A stretch of 64,000 nucleotides of DNA from Erythrobacteraceae bacterium. Its GTDB lineage: Bacteria; Pseudomonadota; Alphaproteobacteria; Sphingomonadales; Sphingomonadaceae. The stretch covers positions 1 to 64,000 of the forward strand of contig JAIXPX010000034.1 of the NCBI GenBank assembly GCA_027486035.1, in the 5' to 3' direction. A program made the translations under genes and the position numbers. Below, piece after piece: positions 8,983 to 52,576 of the stretch. Each line of letters opens with the position of its first letter. Position 1 is the first letter of the stretch. Below the pieces are notes generated by a model that made no database searches, was not told where the DNA came from, and was given only the letters and a program-made list of their open reading frames with translations.

Positions 8983-10401
8983 ATGAAGCGCATTCTCTCC
9001 AATCTTGCGATGGCAGCGACCGGGGCGGCGCTGCTCGCCGCGCCGGCCATGGCCGCACCTGCGGCGACGCCCGCACCCTTTGTGCCCACCGCCGAGATGG
9101 TCGACAAGGGCGACGTTGCCTGGATGATGGTCTCGACCGCCTTCGTCCTGATGATGAGCGTCCCCGCCCTTGCGCTGTTCTACGGCGGCCTAGTGCGCGC
9201 CAAGAACATGCTGAGCGTCCTCATGCAGGTGCTCACCATCGTCTGCGTGGCGGCGCTGGTGTGGTTCGGCTGGGGCTATTCGATGGCCTTCACCTCGACC
9301 GGCACCCCCTTCCCGACGCTGTTCGGCGGGCTCGACAAGGCCTTCCTCAAAGGTGTCAGCGTCACCTCGCTCGCGGCGACCTTCTCGAACGGGGTTTACC
9401 TGCCCGAGCTGGTCTTCGTGATGTTCCAGATGACCTTCGCCTGCATTACCCCGGCGCTGATCGTCGGCGCCTTTGCCGAGCGCGTGAAGTTCACCCCGCT
9501 GATCATCTTTGTGGTCGCGTGGATGACCCTCGCCTACTTCCCGATCGCGCACATGGTCTGGTATTGGGCCGGCCCTGACTTTCTCCACGCCGCGCCGACC
9601 GACATGGGCCTGCTGTGGGGCTGGGGCGCGCTCGACTTCGCCGGCGGCACCGTGGTGCACATCAACGCCGGGATCGCAGGGCTCATCGGCTGCCTCGTGA
9701 TCGGCCCGCGCATCGGTCACGGCAAGGAGCCCATGCCGCCGCACAGCCTGGTCATGACCATGATCGGGGCCAGCCTGCTGTGGATCGGCTGGTTCGGGTT
9801 CAACGCCGGCTCGGCGCTCGAATCCAACGCCTTCGCCGCTCTTGCCTTCATCAACACCTTCGTCGCCACCGCGGCAGCCGGTGTGGCCTGGGCGGTGATC
9901 GAGAAGGTTGCGCACGGCAAGCCTTCGCTGCTCGGCGGCGTGTCGGGTGTGGTGGCCGGTCTGGTCGCGATCACTCCGGCGGCGGGCTTCGCCCATCCTG
10001 GCACCGCGATCATCCTCGGCGCTGTCGCCTCGCTGATCTGCTACTTCTTCGTCACCACGGTGAAGAACAAGCTCAAGTATGACGACACGCTCGACGTGTT
10101 CGGCATCCATGCGGTCGGCGGGATCGTCGGCGCGATCGGCACCGGCATCGTCGCCGACCCGGCGCTCGGTGGTCAGGGCTGGATCGACTACACCGCTCCG
10201 GTGGCCAAGGCGGGCGAGTTCGATCTCGTCGGCCAGGTCATCACCCAGTGCTGGGCGGTCGGCACCACCGTCGCGTGGACCAGCGTCGTCTCGGCGGGGC
10301 TGTTCCTTGCCCTCAAGTACACCATCGGGCTGCGCCCCGACGCCGAAGCCGAAACCAACGGCCTCGACATCACCGAACACGGGGAGCGCGCCTACAACTA
10401 A
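8983..10401 (+). CDS. amtB: Ammonium transporter
   Basis: Signal peptide then ALFYGGLVRAKNMLSVLMQ, FAGGTVVHINAGIAGL, DVFGIHAVGGIVGAIGTGI. Confidence 0.96.
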   Translation: MKRILSNLAMAATGAALLAAPAMAAPAATPAPFVPTAEMVDKGDVAWMMVSTAFVLMMSVPALALFYGGLVRAKNMLSVLMQVLTIVCVAALVWFGWGYSMAFTSTGTPFPTLFGGLDKAFLKGVSVTSLAATFSNGVYLPELVFVMFQMTFACITPALIVGAFAERVKFTPLIIFVVAWMTLAYFPIAHMVWYWAGPDFLHAAPTDMGLLWGWGALDFAGGTVVHINAGIAGLIGCLVIGPRIGHGKEPMPPHSLVMTMIGASLLWIGWFGFNAGSALESNAFAALAFINTFVATAAAGVAWAVIEKVAHGKPSLLGGVSGVVAGLVAITPAAGFAHPGTAIILGAVASLICYFFVTTVKNKLKYDDTLDVFGIHAVGGIVGAIGTGIVADPALGGQGWIDYTAPVAKAGEFDLVGQVITQCWAVGTTVAWTSVVSAGLFLALKYTIGLRPDAEAETNGLDITEHGERAYN

Positions 10402-10408
10402 TCCGGGA

Positions 10409-10452
10409 GCATCGCGCAAAAAGTGGGCACCGGTTTTTGCCCTTCGCGATGC
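10409..10452. repeat. Imperfect palindrome downstream of amtB
   Basis: GCATCGCG CAAAAA gtgggcaccg GTTTTTG ccctt CGCGATGC. Confidence 0.6.
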
Positions 10453-10554
10453 GACCAGCAAAGAAACACCAAGCTTGGCGGGGGGAGGCCTCTCTCTCCC
10501 TCTCCCCTCCCCCCGCCTCACCTTGTTCCTCCTGCGAACGAACAGACTGATTAT

Positions 10555-10588
10555 GGCCGGAGCAGCGAAAGCTCTCCGGCCTTTTTTT
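10555..10588 (+). terminator. Rho-independent terminator
   Basis: GGCCGGAGcagcgaaagctCTCCGGCC followed by a 7-T tract. Confidence 0.9.
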
Positions 10589-10597
10589 GTTTGGTGA

Positions 10598-10613
10598 TGT
10601 TTCACGTGAAACA
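10598..10613. promoter_or_regulatory. parS-like ParB binding site 1
   Basis: Perfect 16-bp palindrome TGTTTCACGTGAAACA, identical to the canonical parS consensus; intergenic between convergent genes. Confidence 0.82.
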
Positions 10614-10640
10614 GTCCCCCAGACCCGCGGCGAGAGGGGG

Positions 10641-10695
10641 CCAGCAGGAGTCTAGAGGGGGTCTGGAGGGGGTCTAGGCAGGGCCTAACCGGCGC
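10641..10695 (+). repeat. 11-bp direct repeat array adjacent to parS 1
   Basis: CCAGCAGGAGT CTAGAGGGGGT CTGGAGGGGGT CTAGGCAGGGC CTAACCGGCGC: five consecutive 11-bp units. Confidence 0.65.
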
Positions 10696-10768
10696 GCGCG
10701 CGGGGATGGAAGGGGCCTGACACGGTCAGGCTCCATCAACGCCCGCGCCCGCCGCGCGAGGGCCGAAA

Positions 10769-12352
10769 CTACTCGGCCGCCATCACGAAGTCGGCGCACC
10801 TTTCGCCGATCATGATGCTCGGCGCGTTGGTGTTGCCGCTGACGATCTTGGGCATCACGCTGGCATCCGCGACCCACAGCCCTTCGAGCCCGTTGAGCTT
10901 GAGCGTGGGGTTGACCACCGCATCCGCATCGCTCCCCATCCGGCAGGTGCCGACGGGGTGGTAGACGGTGTCCGCCCGCGCGCGGATGAGCGCGTCGAGC
11001 GCCGCGTCGTCATTGAGGTCGACGGGGTGACGGTCCTTGGGACCGAAGGCTTGCATCGGCGGCGCCTCGGCGATGCGATGCGAGAGACGCACGCCGGCGC
11101 GCAGCACCGCCATGTCGCGCTCGTCATCGAGGAAGTTGGGGTCGATCACCGGCGCCGCTGCCGCATCCGCACTCCCCAGCCGCACGGTCCCGCGGCTCTC
11201 GGGCCGCAGCACGCAGGCGTGGAGCGAGAAGCCGTGCGCCTTCACCTTCTCGCGCCCGTGATCCTCCAGCACCGCGGGGACAAAGTGCCACTGCACGTCC
11301 GGCGCGGGGCTATCGGGCATGACGGTCCAGAAGCCGCCCGCCTCGGCATAACAGGTCGTCATCACCCCGGTGCGCTTCATTCGGTGCTCGACCATCGCGG
11401 CGGCCATGCGCAGTGTGCCCTTGAGGGTGCTGCCGATCGGCACGTCGCTGTCCGTCTCCCAGCCCGAGACGTAGTCGATGTGGTCCTGGAGGTTCCCACC
11501 CACTGCCGGCCGGTCGAGCACCACATCGATGCCGTGGGCCTTGAGGTGCTCTGCCGGACCGATGCCGGAGAGCATGAGAATCTGGGGGGAGTTGAACGCG
11601 CCTGCCGAAAGAATCACGCCGCGCCGCGCCAGCAGCGTCTCGCGCTTGCCCTTGCGCAGGATCTGGACGCCGGTCACGCGCCCGCCCTCGATCACCAGCT
11701 TCTCGACCAGCGTATCGGTGCGCACCGACACATTGCCCTGGTCGCGGACCGGCTCCACATAGGCGCGCGCCGCCGACCAGCGCTCGCCCTTGTGCTGGGT
11801 CACCTGGTAGAGGCCGAAGCCGTCCTGGCGCTCGCCGTTGAAATCCGTGCTGGTGCGCAGCTGGAGCGCTGCGGCGGCCTCCACGAAAGCGCGGCTTGCG
11901 GGATTGGCGTGCTTCTGGTCCTCGACGAACAGCGGTCCGCCGTGGCCGTGGAAGTCGTCGCCCCCGCGCTCGTTCGCCTCGGCACGCTTGAAGTAGGGAA
12001 GCACGTCATCATAGGCCCAGCCGGCGCACCCCTCGGCTGCCCAGTTGTCGTAATCCCAGCGGTTGCCGCGGATATAGACCATCGCGTTGATCGCCGAGGA
12101 GCCGCCAAGCCCGCGCCCGCGCGGCTGATAGCCGGTGCGGCCATTGAGGCCCTTCTGCGGCACGGTCTCGTAGCGGTAGTTCGACGCCTGCGGAATGAAC
12201 GGCATGAAGCCCGGCGTCTTGACCCAGACGTTGTTGTTATGCCCGCCTGCCTCGATGAGGCACACCCGCCGCGTACCGTCGACCGAAAGGCGGCCGGTTA
12301 CGGCGCTGCCGGCGCTGCCGCCGCCGATGACGATGTAGTCGAAACTTTCCAT
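10769..12352 (-). CDS. GMC family FAD oxidoreductase (choline dehydrogenase-like)
   Basis: FDYIVIGGGSAGSAVTGRLS; GRGLGGSSAINAMVYIRGN; C-terminal TVYHPVGTCRMG. Confidence 0.92.
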   Translation of the reverse strand: MESFDYIVIGGGSAGSAVTGRLSVDGTRRVCLIEAGGHNNNVWVKTPGFMPFIPQASNYRYETVPQKGLNGRTGYQPRGRGLGGSSAINAMVYIRGNRWDYDNWAAEGCAGWAYDDVLPYFKRAEANERGGDDFHGHGGPLFVEDQKHANPASRAFVEAAAALQLRTSTDFNGERQDGFGLYQVTQHKGERWSAARAYVEPVRDQGNVSVRTDTLVEKLVIEGGRVTGVQILRKGKRETLLARRGVILSAGAFNSPQILMLSGIGPAEHLKAHGIDVVLDRPAVGGNLQDHIDYVSGWETDSDVPIGSTLKGTLRMAAAMVEHRMKRTGVMTTCYAEAGGFWTVMPDSPAPDVQWHFVPAVLEDHGREKVKAHGFSLHACVLRPESRGTVRLGSADAAAAPVIDPNFLDDERDMAVLRAGVRLSHRIAEAPPMQAFGPKDRHPVDLNDDAALDALIRARADTVYHPVGTCRMGSDADAVVNPTLKLNGLEGLWVADASVMPKIVSGNTNAPSIMIGERCADFVMAAE

Positions 12353-28971: not shown

Positions 28972-30116
28972 GCGACGCCCCGGACGAAGGTGGCCTCACC
29001 GTCCGCATTGCAAGCTCGGTCGGCACCTTCGATGCGGCCGAATGGAACGCGCTCGGCGGGAATGACAATCCCTTCGTCAGCCACGAATTCCTCACCGCGA
29101 TGGAGGATTCGGGGTCGGTCGGCCCCGGCACCGGCTGGGAGCCTGCGCCCATCGTCATCACCGGCGCGGACGGCAGACTGCTGGCGGCGATGCCCGCCTA
29201 TGCCAAGGGGCACAGCCAGGGCGAATATGTCTTCGACCATGCCTGGGCCGACGCCTGGCACCGCGCGGGCGGGCGCTACTACCCCAAGCTCCAGATCGCC
29301 GCGCCCTTCACGCCTGCGACCGGCCCGCGGCTGCTGCTCAGCGACGCGAGCTTCGCCCCGCACCTCCTCAAGGGCGCCGAGGCGGTTTGCCTGCAGAACA
29401 CGCTTTCCAGCGCCCATGCGACCTTCATCGACCCCGCCCAGCTTCCGCTGTTCGAACAGGCAGGCTGGATGCCGCGCGCCGACATCCAGTTCCACTGGTT
29501 CAACCGCGACTACGGCAGCTTCGAGGATTTCCTCGGGGCGCTCTCGTCGCGGAAACGCAAGGACCTGCGCAAGGAACGCGCGGCCGCGACCGAGGGGCTG
29601 ACGATCCGTCACCTCACCGGCAGCGACATCCGCGAGGAGCACTGGGACGCTTTCTGGGTGTTCTATCAGGACACTGGCGCGAGGAAGTGGGGGAGCCCCT
29701 ATCTGACCCGCGAGGCCTTCAGCCTGCTTGGGCAGAGGATGGGGGAGCGGATCGTGCTGATCCTCGCCTATGACGGCGAGGACGCCATCGCCGGGGCGCT
29801 GAACTTCGCCGGAAGGGATGCGCTCTACGGGCGCTACTGGGGCTGCACCCGCGAGGTGCGCTTCCTCCATTTCGAGCTGTGCTACTATCAGGCGATCGAC
29901 ATTGCGATCGCGCGCGGCCTCGCGCGGGTCGAGGCGGGCGCGCAGGGCGGGCACAAGCTCGCCCGTGGTTACGTGCCGGTGCAGACCTGGTCGGCGCACT
30001 GGATTGCCGATCCCGGCTTCCGCAGCGCTGTTGCCGATTTCCTCGAACGCGAACGCGCCGGGGTGGCGAGCGACCAGCTCTATCTCGGCAGCCGCACGCC
30101 CTTCAAGAAGGGTTAG
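28968..30116 (+). CDS. FemAB-like/DUF482 GNAT-type acyltransferase
   Basis: NPFVSHEFLTAMEDSGSV; QFHWFNRDYGSFEDFLGALSSRKRKDLRKER; GTG start overlapping the GDPD stop. Confidence 0.85.
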   Translation: MSDAPDEGGLTVRIASSVGTFDAAEWNALGGNDNPFVSHEFLTAMEDSGSVGPGTGWEPAPIVITGADGRLLAAMPAYAKGHSQGEYVFDHAWADAWHRAGGRYYPKLQIAAPFTPATGPRLLLSDASFAPHLLKGAEAVCLQNTLSSAHATFIDPAQLPLFEQAGWMPRADIQFHWFNRDYGSFEDFLGALSSRKRKDLRKERAAATEGLTIRHLTGSDIREEHWDAFWVFYQDTGARKWGSPYLTREAFSLLGQRMGERIVLILAYDGEDAIAGALNFAGRDALYGRYWGCTREVRFLHFELCYYQAIDIAIARGLARVEAGAQGGHKLARGYVPVQTWSAHWIADPGFRSAVADFLERERAGVASDQLYLGSRTPFKKG

Positions 30117-30442
30117 GCGGCGCGCAGCGTGCCTTCGGCAAGCCACTGGCGCGCGCGGCGCTGGGCTTCGGCGATTTCGCGGGCGGTCATCTCGTCGGCG
30201 ATGCTGGCCCGGCAATCGGCGGCTTCCTCGTGGCCGCGCGCGGCGGCGAGGTTGAACCACTTGTGCGCTTCGATGAGGTCGCAGGGCGCGCCGTTGCTAC
30301 CCATCGAGAAAGCCACCCCCAGGTCGAAGCAGGCCCCCGCCTGACCCCTGCCAGCCTCGGCCAGCCAGGCTCCAAGCACGCCTTCGCGGCGTGTTTCATG
30401 TGAAACATTGGCAGAAGCCGTGGCGATCGCGATGACGGTCAT
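30113..30442 (-). CDS. Sel1-repeat protein
   Basis: ACFDLGVAFSMGSNGAPCDLIEAHKWFNLAAARGHEEAADCRASIADEMTAREIAEAQRRARQWL. Confidence 0.8.
   Translation of the reverse strand: MTVIAIATASANVSHETRREGVLGAWLAEAGRGQAGACFDLGVAFSMGSNGAPCDLIEAHKWFNLAAARGHEEAADCRASIADEMTAREIAEAQRRARQWLAEGTLRAA
30392..30407. promoter_or_regulatory. parS-like variant (one mismatch), inside the Sel1 CDS
   Basis: TGTTTCATGTGAAACA vs TGTTTCACGTGAAACA. Confidence 0.4.
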
Positions 30443-50854: not shown

Positions 50855-51664
50855 ATGGGACAATTGCAGGGCAAGACCGCGGTCATTCTGGGGGCGGCAT
50901 CGGAAGGCAACATGGGCCAGACCATCGCCCGCCTGTTCGCGCAGGAAGGCGCGAAGGTCATGGTCGCAGGCCGCAAGGAAGCGCCGCTCGCTGCGTTAGC
51001 TGCTGAATTAAAAGGCGAATATGCGCTGTGTGATATCGCCAAGAAGCCCGAGGTCAACGCCATGGCCGACAAGGCGGTGGCCGCTTTCGGGCGGGTCGAT
51101 ATCGCCATCAACACCACCGGCTGGGGCCTGCTCGCCAGCCTCGAGGAGATCACCGACGAACAGCTCGACCAGATCGTCGATCTCCAGTTCAAGGGGGTGC
51201 ACCACTTCCTGCAGGCCTTCGTGCGGGTCATGAGCGCGCAGGCACCCACTGGCGGATCGCTGATCTCGCTGTCCTCGGCGACGACCAAGGCGATCATCAC
51301 CAACCACGCCGCCTATATCGGCACCAAGCGCGGCTCCGAGGCGCTGATCGAGTGTGTTGCCAATGATTACGGGCACTTGGGAATCAAGGCTAACACCGTC
51401 TCGCCCGCTTTTACCGATAGCCCCATGACCCACGAGAGCTTTCAGGTGCCCGGGCTCACCGATGCCTTCCTGCCGCGCTACCCGATGGGCCGGCTCAACA
51501 CGGTCGACGATGTCGCCCATGCCTGCCTCTGGCTCAGCACCGACCAGGCCTATGTGACGGGGGCGAATATCCAGCCCAATGGCGGCCTCATCATGCGCGG
51601 CAATCCGCAGGCCCATGATGTTGCCGCAGCGGTCGGGGCGGCGATGGCGAAGTTACAGCAGTAA
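50855..51664 (+). CDS. SDR family oxidoreductase
   Basis: KTAVILGAASEGNMGQTIARLFAQEGAKVMVAGRKE; AYIGTKRGSEALIECVA. Confidence 0.88.
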   Translation: MGQLQGKTAVILGAASEGNMGQTIARLFAQEGAKVMVAGRKEAPLAALAAELKGEYALCDIAKKPEVNAMADKAVAAFGRVDIAINTTGWGLLASLEEITDEQLDQIVDLQFKGVHHFLQAFVRVMSAQAPTGGSLISLSSATTKAIITNHAAYIGTKRGSEALIECVANDYGHLGIKANTVSPAFTDSPMTHESFQVPGLTDAFLPRYPMGRLNTVDDVAHACLWLSTDQAYVTGANIQPNGGLIMRGNPQAHDVAAAVGAAMAKLQQ

Positions 51665-51680
51665 AACCGGCGGGCGGCAT

Positions 51681-51696
51681 TGTTTCACGTGAAACA
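51681..51696. promoter_or_regulatory. parS-like ParB binding site 2
   Basis: Perfect palindrome TGTTTCACGTGAAACA in a convergent intergenic gap. Confidence 0.82.
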
Positions 51697-51713
51697 CTGC
51701 CGCCGATGCCCCG

Positions 51714-51788
51714 CTGGAACCAGCCTGGAGCGCGCCTGAACGCGTCTGGAGGGGGCCTGGAGGGGGTCTGGAACGCGCTGGAGCCGCG
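51714..51788 (+). repeat. About 11-bp direct repeat array adjacent to parS 2
   Basis: CTGGAACCAGC CTGGAGCGCGC CTGAACGCGT CTGGAGGGGGC CTGGAGGGGGT CTGGAACGCG CTGGAGCCGCG. Confidence 0.75.
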
Positions 51789-51799
51789 CTGCTGCCCGC

Positions 51800-52576
51800 C
51801 TAGTACTGCGCCGTCCCGCCATCGACGCTGATCTGCTGGCCGGTGATCCCGCCGCCCGCCTCGCTGGCGAGCAGCACCGCCACGGCGGCCACTTCCTCGA
51901 CCGTGTTCGGCCGCTTGATCGCGGCTTCCTGCGCGAAGAGGTCGATCATCTCCTCGAACTCGAGCCCCATCGCCTTGGCGGTGGCGGGTCCGTTGTTCCT
52001 GATGATGTCGGTGATGACGATGCCCGGGCAGATCGCGTTGACCGTCACGCCCGCCGCACCCACTTCGCGTGCGAGGCTCTTGGTCATCCCGTTCACCGCG
52101 TGCTTGGCGGCGCTGTAAGCGGTCAGCACCGGCTTGCCGTGCTTGCCCTCCATCGAGGAGATGTTGATGATCCGCCCGAAGCCCTTCTCCAGCATGGTCG
52201 GCAGCGCCCGGCGCGAGGCCCAGAAGGTCGAATAGACGTTCCACTTCATCGCCTCGTCGAAGGCGTGGTCGGAAAGGTTGACGAGCGGCTGCAGATCGCC
52301 CGCGCCGCCCGCATTGTTGACCAGAATGTCGAGCGTCCCGAAATGCGCCGCCACCTTGTCGACGAAGCCCTCGAGATCGGACTGGCTCATGACATCGCCT
52401 GCGACGAACAGCGCGTTTGCGCCCGCCCCCAGCTCCGCGAGCACCTTGGCGCCCTTTTCGGCATTGCGCGCGAAGAGCGCGACCCTGGCGCCCTCGGCCA
52501 GAAACGCCTCGGCGATGCCGCGCCCCATGCCTGCCGTGCCCCCGGTGATCGCGGCGACCTTTCCTGCCAGTTTCAT
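51800..52576 (-). CDS. SDR family oxidoreductase
   Basis: MKLAGKVAAITGGTAGMGRGIAEAFLAEGARVALFARN; NNAGGAGDL; YSAAKHAVNGMTKSLAREVG. Confidence 0.92.
   Translation of the reverse strand: MKLAGKVAAITGGTAGMGRGIAEAFLAEGARVALFARNAEKGAKVLAELGAGANALFVAGDVMSQSDLEGFVDKVAAHFGTLDILVNNAGGAGDLQPLVNLSDHAFDEAMKWNVYSTFWASRRALPTMLEKGFGRIINISSMEGKHGKPVLTAYSAAKHAVNGMTKSLAREVGAAGVTVNAICPGIVITDIIRNNGPATAKAMGLEFEEMIDLFAQEAAIKRPNTVEEVAAVAVLLASEAGGGITGQQISVDGGTAQY

Follow-up and report, generated by a model that had tools for sequence, protein, structure and literature searches.

The window analysed here is the whole stretch of 64,000 nucleotides from an Erythrobacteraceae bacterium. Locus 1, at 10598-10695 of the window, lies in the gap between two convergent genes and consists of a perfect parS palindrome followed on one side by an array of 11-bp units. 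The features of the locus and its neighbours are the following.

8983..10401, + strand: ammonium transporter gene (amtB; PF00909, E 2.7e-109), 3' end toward the palindrome side of locus 1
10598..10613, no strand: perfect parS palindrome TGTTTCACGTGAAACA (locus 1; exact match), identical to the parS beside gidAB/parAB in the same genome
10614..10640, + strand: stretch next to the palindrome, holding two degenerate units in phase (CAGA at 10620, CGAG at 10631) and fitting grid positions +6 and +17
10641..10695, + strand: five clear 11-bp units, CCAGCAGGAGT/CTAGAGGGGGT/CTGGAGGGGGT/CTAGGCAGGGC/CTAACCGGCGC (sequence, unit-matrix fit and model match)
10769..12352, - strand: GMC oxidoreductase gene (PF00732, PF05199), 3' end toward the array side of locus 1

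The palindrome, the five units and the convergent neighbours had been described in a sequence-only reading of this DNA, and on these points our analysis agrees with it: the parS match at 10598-10613 is exact, all five units could be placed exactly within 10641-10695 (10641-10651, 10652-10662, 10663-10673, 10674-10684 and 10685-10695), and both gene assignments are backed by Pfam. The G-rich spacer that it had placed after the palindrome is present as a stretch of DNA, but it is not an empty spacer, as it holds the two degenerate in-phase units. Locus 1 thus has seven in-register units after the palindrome, five clear and two degenerate; the fit of the unit matrix described below likewise gives 7 units, the first at offset 4. 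Taken alone, the array of locus 1 is no more than modestly repetitive: Tandem Repeats Finder by itself reports a weak array (10650-10677, score 49), similar to the chance arrays of the window, and the strength and meaning of the array come from comparison with other sites. A search of 10380-10790 for structured RNA gave no Rfam match up to E 0.1, a sigma-70 promoter scan found nothing, and a terminator scan found two terminator-like sites, near chance level and neither of them inside the element.

The window contains three parS-like sites with at most 3 mismatches, where 0.05 would be expected from shuffling. The other two sites, with their arrays, are listed here.

30321..30391, - strand: weak array of locus 3, inside an ORF (model match 30321-30408, - strand, 46.9 bits)
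30392..30407, no strand: parS-like palindrome TGTTTCATGTGAAACA with one mismatch (locus 3; pattern scan)
51681..51696, no strand: perfect parS palindrome (locus 2; exact match)
51714..51788, + strand: array of locus 2, seven CTGGA/CTGAA units (repeat analysis; clearer than the locus 1 array)

Locus 2 is flanked by convergent SDR genes (50855-51664, + strand, and 51800-52576, - strand). Its units follow each other in steps of 11, 11, 10, 11, 11 and 10 bp, i.e. at +17, 28, 39, 49, 60, 71 and 81, and this alternation keeps the array on a 10.75-bp grid. The palindrome of locus 3 falls inside a short ORF (30113-30442, - strand) with a sub-threshold match to Sel1 repeats. In the orthologue of locus 3 in a same-genus relative (G103, see below) the exact palindrome is kept and the array scores under the threshold.

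The comparison was based mainly on the window's own genome (G000; 2.55 Mb in 52 contigs, approximately 90% complete) and on the complete 3.09 Mb chromosome of G103. G000 contains 40 exact copies of TGTTTCACGTGAAACA, distributed over many contigs, and no copy of the reversed control sequence. Most of these copies are flanked on one side by an array of CTGGAnGGGGT-type units, roughly 100 bases long; counting exact and near-exact palindromes together, approximately 35-42 carry such a one-sided array. In G103 there are 52 copies of TGTTTCACGTGAAACA, 39 of them with an array. With an 11-bp unit matrix learned by expectation-maximisation, an array was found at 74 of the 95 sites of the two genomes and, at the same threshold, in 1 of 190 shuffled flanks. 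The sequence-only reading had proposed to test whether 11-mers of this type are enriched beside parS in relatives, and the outcome was decisively positive (74/95 sites overall, 39/52 in G103). A model trained on nothing but the sequences of 42 elements from G000 and G103 gave 66.7 bits (10597-10685, E 3.4e-18) for locus 1, which belongs to the training set, and 56.1 bits (51680-51770) for locus 2.

Among the sites without an array are those of the gidAB/parAB parS cluster and a small number of conserved sites farther away. They differ from the array sites also in their immediate flanks: TT flanks were found in 37 of 42 cases at array-less sites and in 7 of 74 cases on the array side of array sites. 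The split by array and TT flank indicates two classes of parS. None of the genomes examined has arrays at the origin-proximal parS cluster; in G103 this cluster lies at 950-955 kb, and the array elements are 0.03 to 1.52 Mb from the origin. The suggestion of the sequence-only reading that the array is an accessory element of the ParABS centromere is not supported in this wording: the origin cluster, which is the actual centromere, is array-less, and the arrays accompany a dispersed second class of parS located at gene 3' ends. The array-less parS sites distant from the origin (L001, L017 and L019; G103 positions 99999, 2037439 and 2048950) are conserved between G000 and G103 and nearly all have TT flanks. 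We also noticed short arrays with no recognisable palindrome nearby (L057, L059, L068 and L070), which may be decayed elements or arrays acting alone.

When 70 elements were aligned by their palindromes, the C[T/A]RR cores of the units fell at +6, +16.6, +27.3, +38, +49, +59.5, +70.3, +81, +92 and +103; the spectrum of these positions peaks at 10.7-10.8 bp. Estimates of the period range from 10.74 to 10.86 bp; the units are thus not spaced by exactly 11 bp, as had been read from locus 1, but follow a period of about 10.75 bp made up of mixed 10- and 11-bp steps. Individual arrays keep a constant phase with respect to the palindrome (R = 0.913, n=55, Rayleigh p ~1e-20), and this holds even for the 19 arrays that start at least 24 bp away from it (p ~1e-6). 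Two further species show the same phase lock (per-element R 0.935 for 23 elements). Deviations from the grid do not accumulate along the array: the spread of spans of k steps rises from 0.35 to only 0.57 at k = 5, compared with the 1.77 expected of a random walk. Successive steps are negatively correlated (r = -0.37), which can partly be explained by a one-base uncertainty in placing the cores, but the slow growth of the span variance cannot. A fixed phase is what is expected for contacts on one face of the DNA, as the sequence-only reading had proposed for the units, and it is not needed by a signal acting at the level of the transcript.

The elements have a characteristic genomic context. 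More than half of the intergenic elements (36 of 66) are found between convergent genes, an arrangement that makes up 14% of the gaps of at least 100 bp in sampled sequence. The gene on the array side ends toward the element in 55 of the 66, and in co-directional gaps the array faces the incoming transcription in 19 of 25 cases. It must be noted that the genes used in this analysis were called by a simple codon-usage script and that orthologous sites of G000 and G103 are not independent, thus the p-values are indicative. The elements are rarely close together: gaps shorter than 15 kb between elements number 2 in G120, a complete genome of the same genus (10.9 expected, p <0.001), 3 in G129 (8.2 expected, p 0.02) and 3 in G103 (6.7 expected, p 0.06). 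We also considered a polarity of the arrays with respect to replication. Among the 39 arrays of G103, 13 of 15 within 0.47 Mb of the origin, and 6 of 24 beyond, point away from it (change-point p = 0.0013, post hoc), but this pattern was not repeated in G129 (p = 0.90) or G120 (p = 0.47), so a genome-wide polarity gives no backing to a directional function.

Comparison of orthologous sites shows what is conserved in the element. Among 22 orthologous pairs of G000 and G103 with an array in both genomes, the array is on the same side in 21. The palindromes of orthologous sites are identical or differ in one base; the array regions are 43% identical in ungapped alignment. These numbers point to a turnover of the array sequence with retention of motif and phase. 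When 85,462 species genomes were scanned for the pattern, matches were confined to Erythrobacter and to metagenome-assembled genomes, most of which are labelled Erythrobacteraceae and two only Sphingomonadales or Alphaproteobacteria. At the level of the genus (61 genomes) approximately 17 have at least 20 model hits and approximately 32 have 0-3; in a sample of 101 genomes from the whole family only the window's own genome has model hits at E 1e-5. As to phage or plasmid carriers of the element, 23 viral contigs match a loose pattern (palindrome near GGGTCTR), none of them with a convincing array. At the loci that we compared, the corresponding junctions are shorter or different in element-free species, and the element appears as extra sequence. 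One example is the enoyl-CoA hydratase gene, which directly adjoins the next gene in at least three element-free species and is separated from it by an element in G103; without the element this junction is operon-tight (L306, L309 and L312, compared with L150). Judged from four loci, the array-bearing clade probably acquired the elements in its common ancestor, with loss elsewhere as a possible alternative.

It is very probable that the dispersed palindromes serve as ParB sites. In both G000 and G103 their sequence is that of the origin parS, and G000 has parA-parB genes with an array-less parS cluster alongside in the same genome. The complete genome of G120 has 57 model hits and not a single copy of TGTTTCACGTGAAACA. 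All 15 dispersed elements that we read in this genome carry TGTTCCACGTGGAACA (one copy with a mismatch), and three TGTTCCACGTGGAACA sites are found at the origin, beside parAB/gidB. G120 thus displays a natural, concerted switch of the ParB-site sequence at origin and dispersed sites, and such a joint change would be predicted for two sets of sites read by a single ParB. In G000 a single chromosomal ParB was detected. A ParB paralogue as a dedicated reader of the elements was considered and rejected: the one further protein with a ParB_N match is a fusion with a DNA methyltransferase. This fusion protein (L049, contig C20 of G000) is probably phage-derived and not a partition protein. The helix-turn-helix of ParB reads VANM(M/H)RL in array-bearing species and VAN(T/L)QRL in element-free species, with IAN in place of VAN in G120, and in a small ParB tree seven array-bearing and four element-free species form two separate groups. 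This change is not counted here as evidence on the elements, as the same two groups are clades of the ParB tree and the difference may reflect plain ancestry.

How could a palindrome and a phased array work together? On the strength of these comparisons we lean towards the view that the elements are dispersed ParB-loading sites, each of which would owe its directionality to a putative protein that binds one flank at every helical turn. In all likelihood the chromosomal ParB binds the palindrome, which would then be a genuine parS. A putative second DNA-binding protein would contact C[T/A]RR-GGG in each helical turn over 4-9 turns, forming a head-to-tail row that shares the register of parS-bound ParB. 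Because the array is present on one side only, it would give the parS a direction, its most likely role being that of a barrier or a latch: ParB clamps, and recruits such as SMC, may be stopped or held on the array side, and the complex may be shielded from transcription arriving from that side. The one-sided array could equally recruit something instead of blocking. The 40-60 dispersed elements on gene boundaries would serve in the organisation of the chromosome arms and not of the origin, which would still be served by the array-less, TT-flanked parS.

The main rival of this model is a Rho-dependent terminator combined with a ParB roadblock, in which the RNA of the array would be rut-like and ParB bound to parS would pause RNA polymerase beyond it. 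Rut sites are C-rich, G-poor stretches of RNA with spaced YC dinucleotides, and the transcript of the array-side gene would have this character: it is C-rich and G-poor, has YC dinucleotides approximately every 11 nt, and its repeat would read CTCCAGACCCC. The orientation of the genes, which end toward the array in 55/66 cases and in 19/25 co-directional gaps send transcription into it, fits as well. However, an RNA signal needs neither a 10.75-bp phase relative to a palindrome up to 90 bp away nor a spacing corrected for drift. The enoyl-CoA hydratase junction is operon-like in at least three element-free species, so the element is not a simple replacement of a terminator there, and locus 3 of the window is inside an ORF. 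The terminator model explains the strand bias and the location at 3' ends but not the helical phase, and we consider it unlikely.

Hardly better placed is the possibility that the array is a DNA-shape element, whose phased pyrimidine-purine steps and G tracts bend or wrap the DNA around a general protein such as gyrase or HU next to parS, in a manner that involves no sequence-specific recognition. It would account for the conserved pyrimidine-purine step (TG, TA or CA) that alternates with G tracts once per turn, and for the drift of the letters between species. The roll modulation at 10.75 bp, calculated with mean roll values, is coherent but small, and the array is strand-asymmetric and one-sided, unlike the wrapping of gyrase, which involves both sides of the cleavage site.

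We find it slightly less probable still that a mobile repeat (MITE or REP-like) carried parS, spread in the ancestor of the clade and left the array as a functionless remnant. The copy number (approximately 40-70 per genome), the clade-restricted distribution and the appearance of the element as extra sequence relative to element-free species at the loci compared are what such a repeat would produce. Yet what the copies have in common is limited to the palindrome and a degenerate phased motif and does not extend to spacers or ends; they have no common sequence or hairpin as REP, BIME or MITE copies do, and neither near-identical copies nor a linked transposase was seen among the copies that we read. 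Palindrome, side and phase were kept although the arrays diverged to 43% identity, and a mobile origin in the past, possible in itself, leaves the present constraint unexplained. That these are ordinary parS sites in G-rich intergenic DNA with arrays arisen by chance, as might be thought for a G+C-rich genome with many short chance repeats, has practically no probability left: it is ruled out by the phase statistics, 1/190 shuffled flanks against 74/95 sites exceed the array threshold, and arrays are missing at the origin parS and in the 23 viral contigs.

A broader proposal can be put forward tentatively: in this Erythrobacter clade the 40-60 parS sites on gene boundaries might constitute a whole-chromosome addressing system, each site being licensed or insulated by a one-sided, phase-locked protein filament, so that ParB, and perhaps SMC, could act along the arms and the harm of ectopic parS would be avoided. 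The model predicts a protein that reads the DNA once per helical turn beside ParB.

It is instructive to compare the elements with known systems. ParB-parS itself is known; for the array component we found no known equivalent, and no description of such arrays in the literature searched, which included few subscription papers. The Noc sites of Firmicutes are, like the elements described here, dispersed parS-like palindromes outside the origin, but Noc, a paralogue of ParB, recognises a site sequence of its own, whereas here the site is parS and a second ParB was not found. The type II plasmid partition system ParR/parC uses tandem short direct repeats approximately one turn apart, which are coated by a small protein. 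The row of direct repeats separated by about one helical turn is common to the two systems; parC, however, has no parS palindrome, and here the array occurs approximately 40 times in a chromosome. The ParB of Pseudomonas aeruginosa binds many dispersed half-parS sites, perhaps organising topology (PMC7022226); these are 7 bp long and array-less, in contrast to the full 16-bp palindromes with a conserved adjoining array found here. A precedent for a partner that holds a clamp is KorB-KorA of plasmid RK2, in which a ParB-family clamp is locked or held by a second DNA-bound protein (PMC11790492). That a sliding clamp of the ParB type is halted or retained by a partner on nearby DNA is the notion common to this system and our model, but KorB-KorA is a plasmid promoter silencer, and the elements lie mostly in convergent-gene gaps and have a multi-unit array of putative partner sites in fixed phase.

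With chromosomal ParABS, the best studied bacterial centromere, the elements share the 16-bp palindrome, and a normal parA-parB locus with an array-less cluster is present here too. Known parS sites cluster near the origin and number no more than 20-23, and an additional parS is tolerated only up to approximately 600 kb from it (PMC7333895). The array elements do not show this proximity to the origin: approximately 40-50 copies of the palindrome are spread over the chromosome, and the majority have a phased array on one side and no TT flanks. The occurrence of 40-60 chromosome-wide parS sites in one lineage is a natural break of the origin-clustering rule, which the array may make tolerable, and the elements offer a sequence-defined route to directional ParB clamps or SMC loading.
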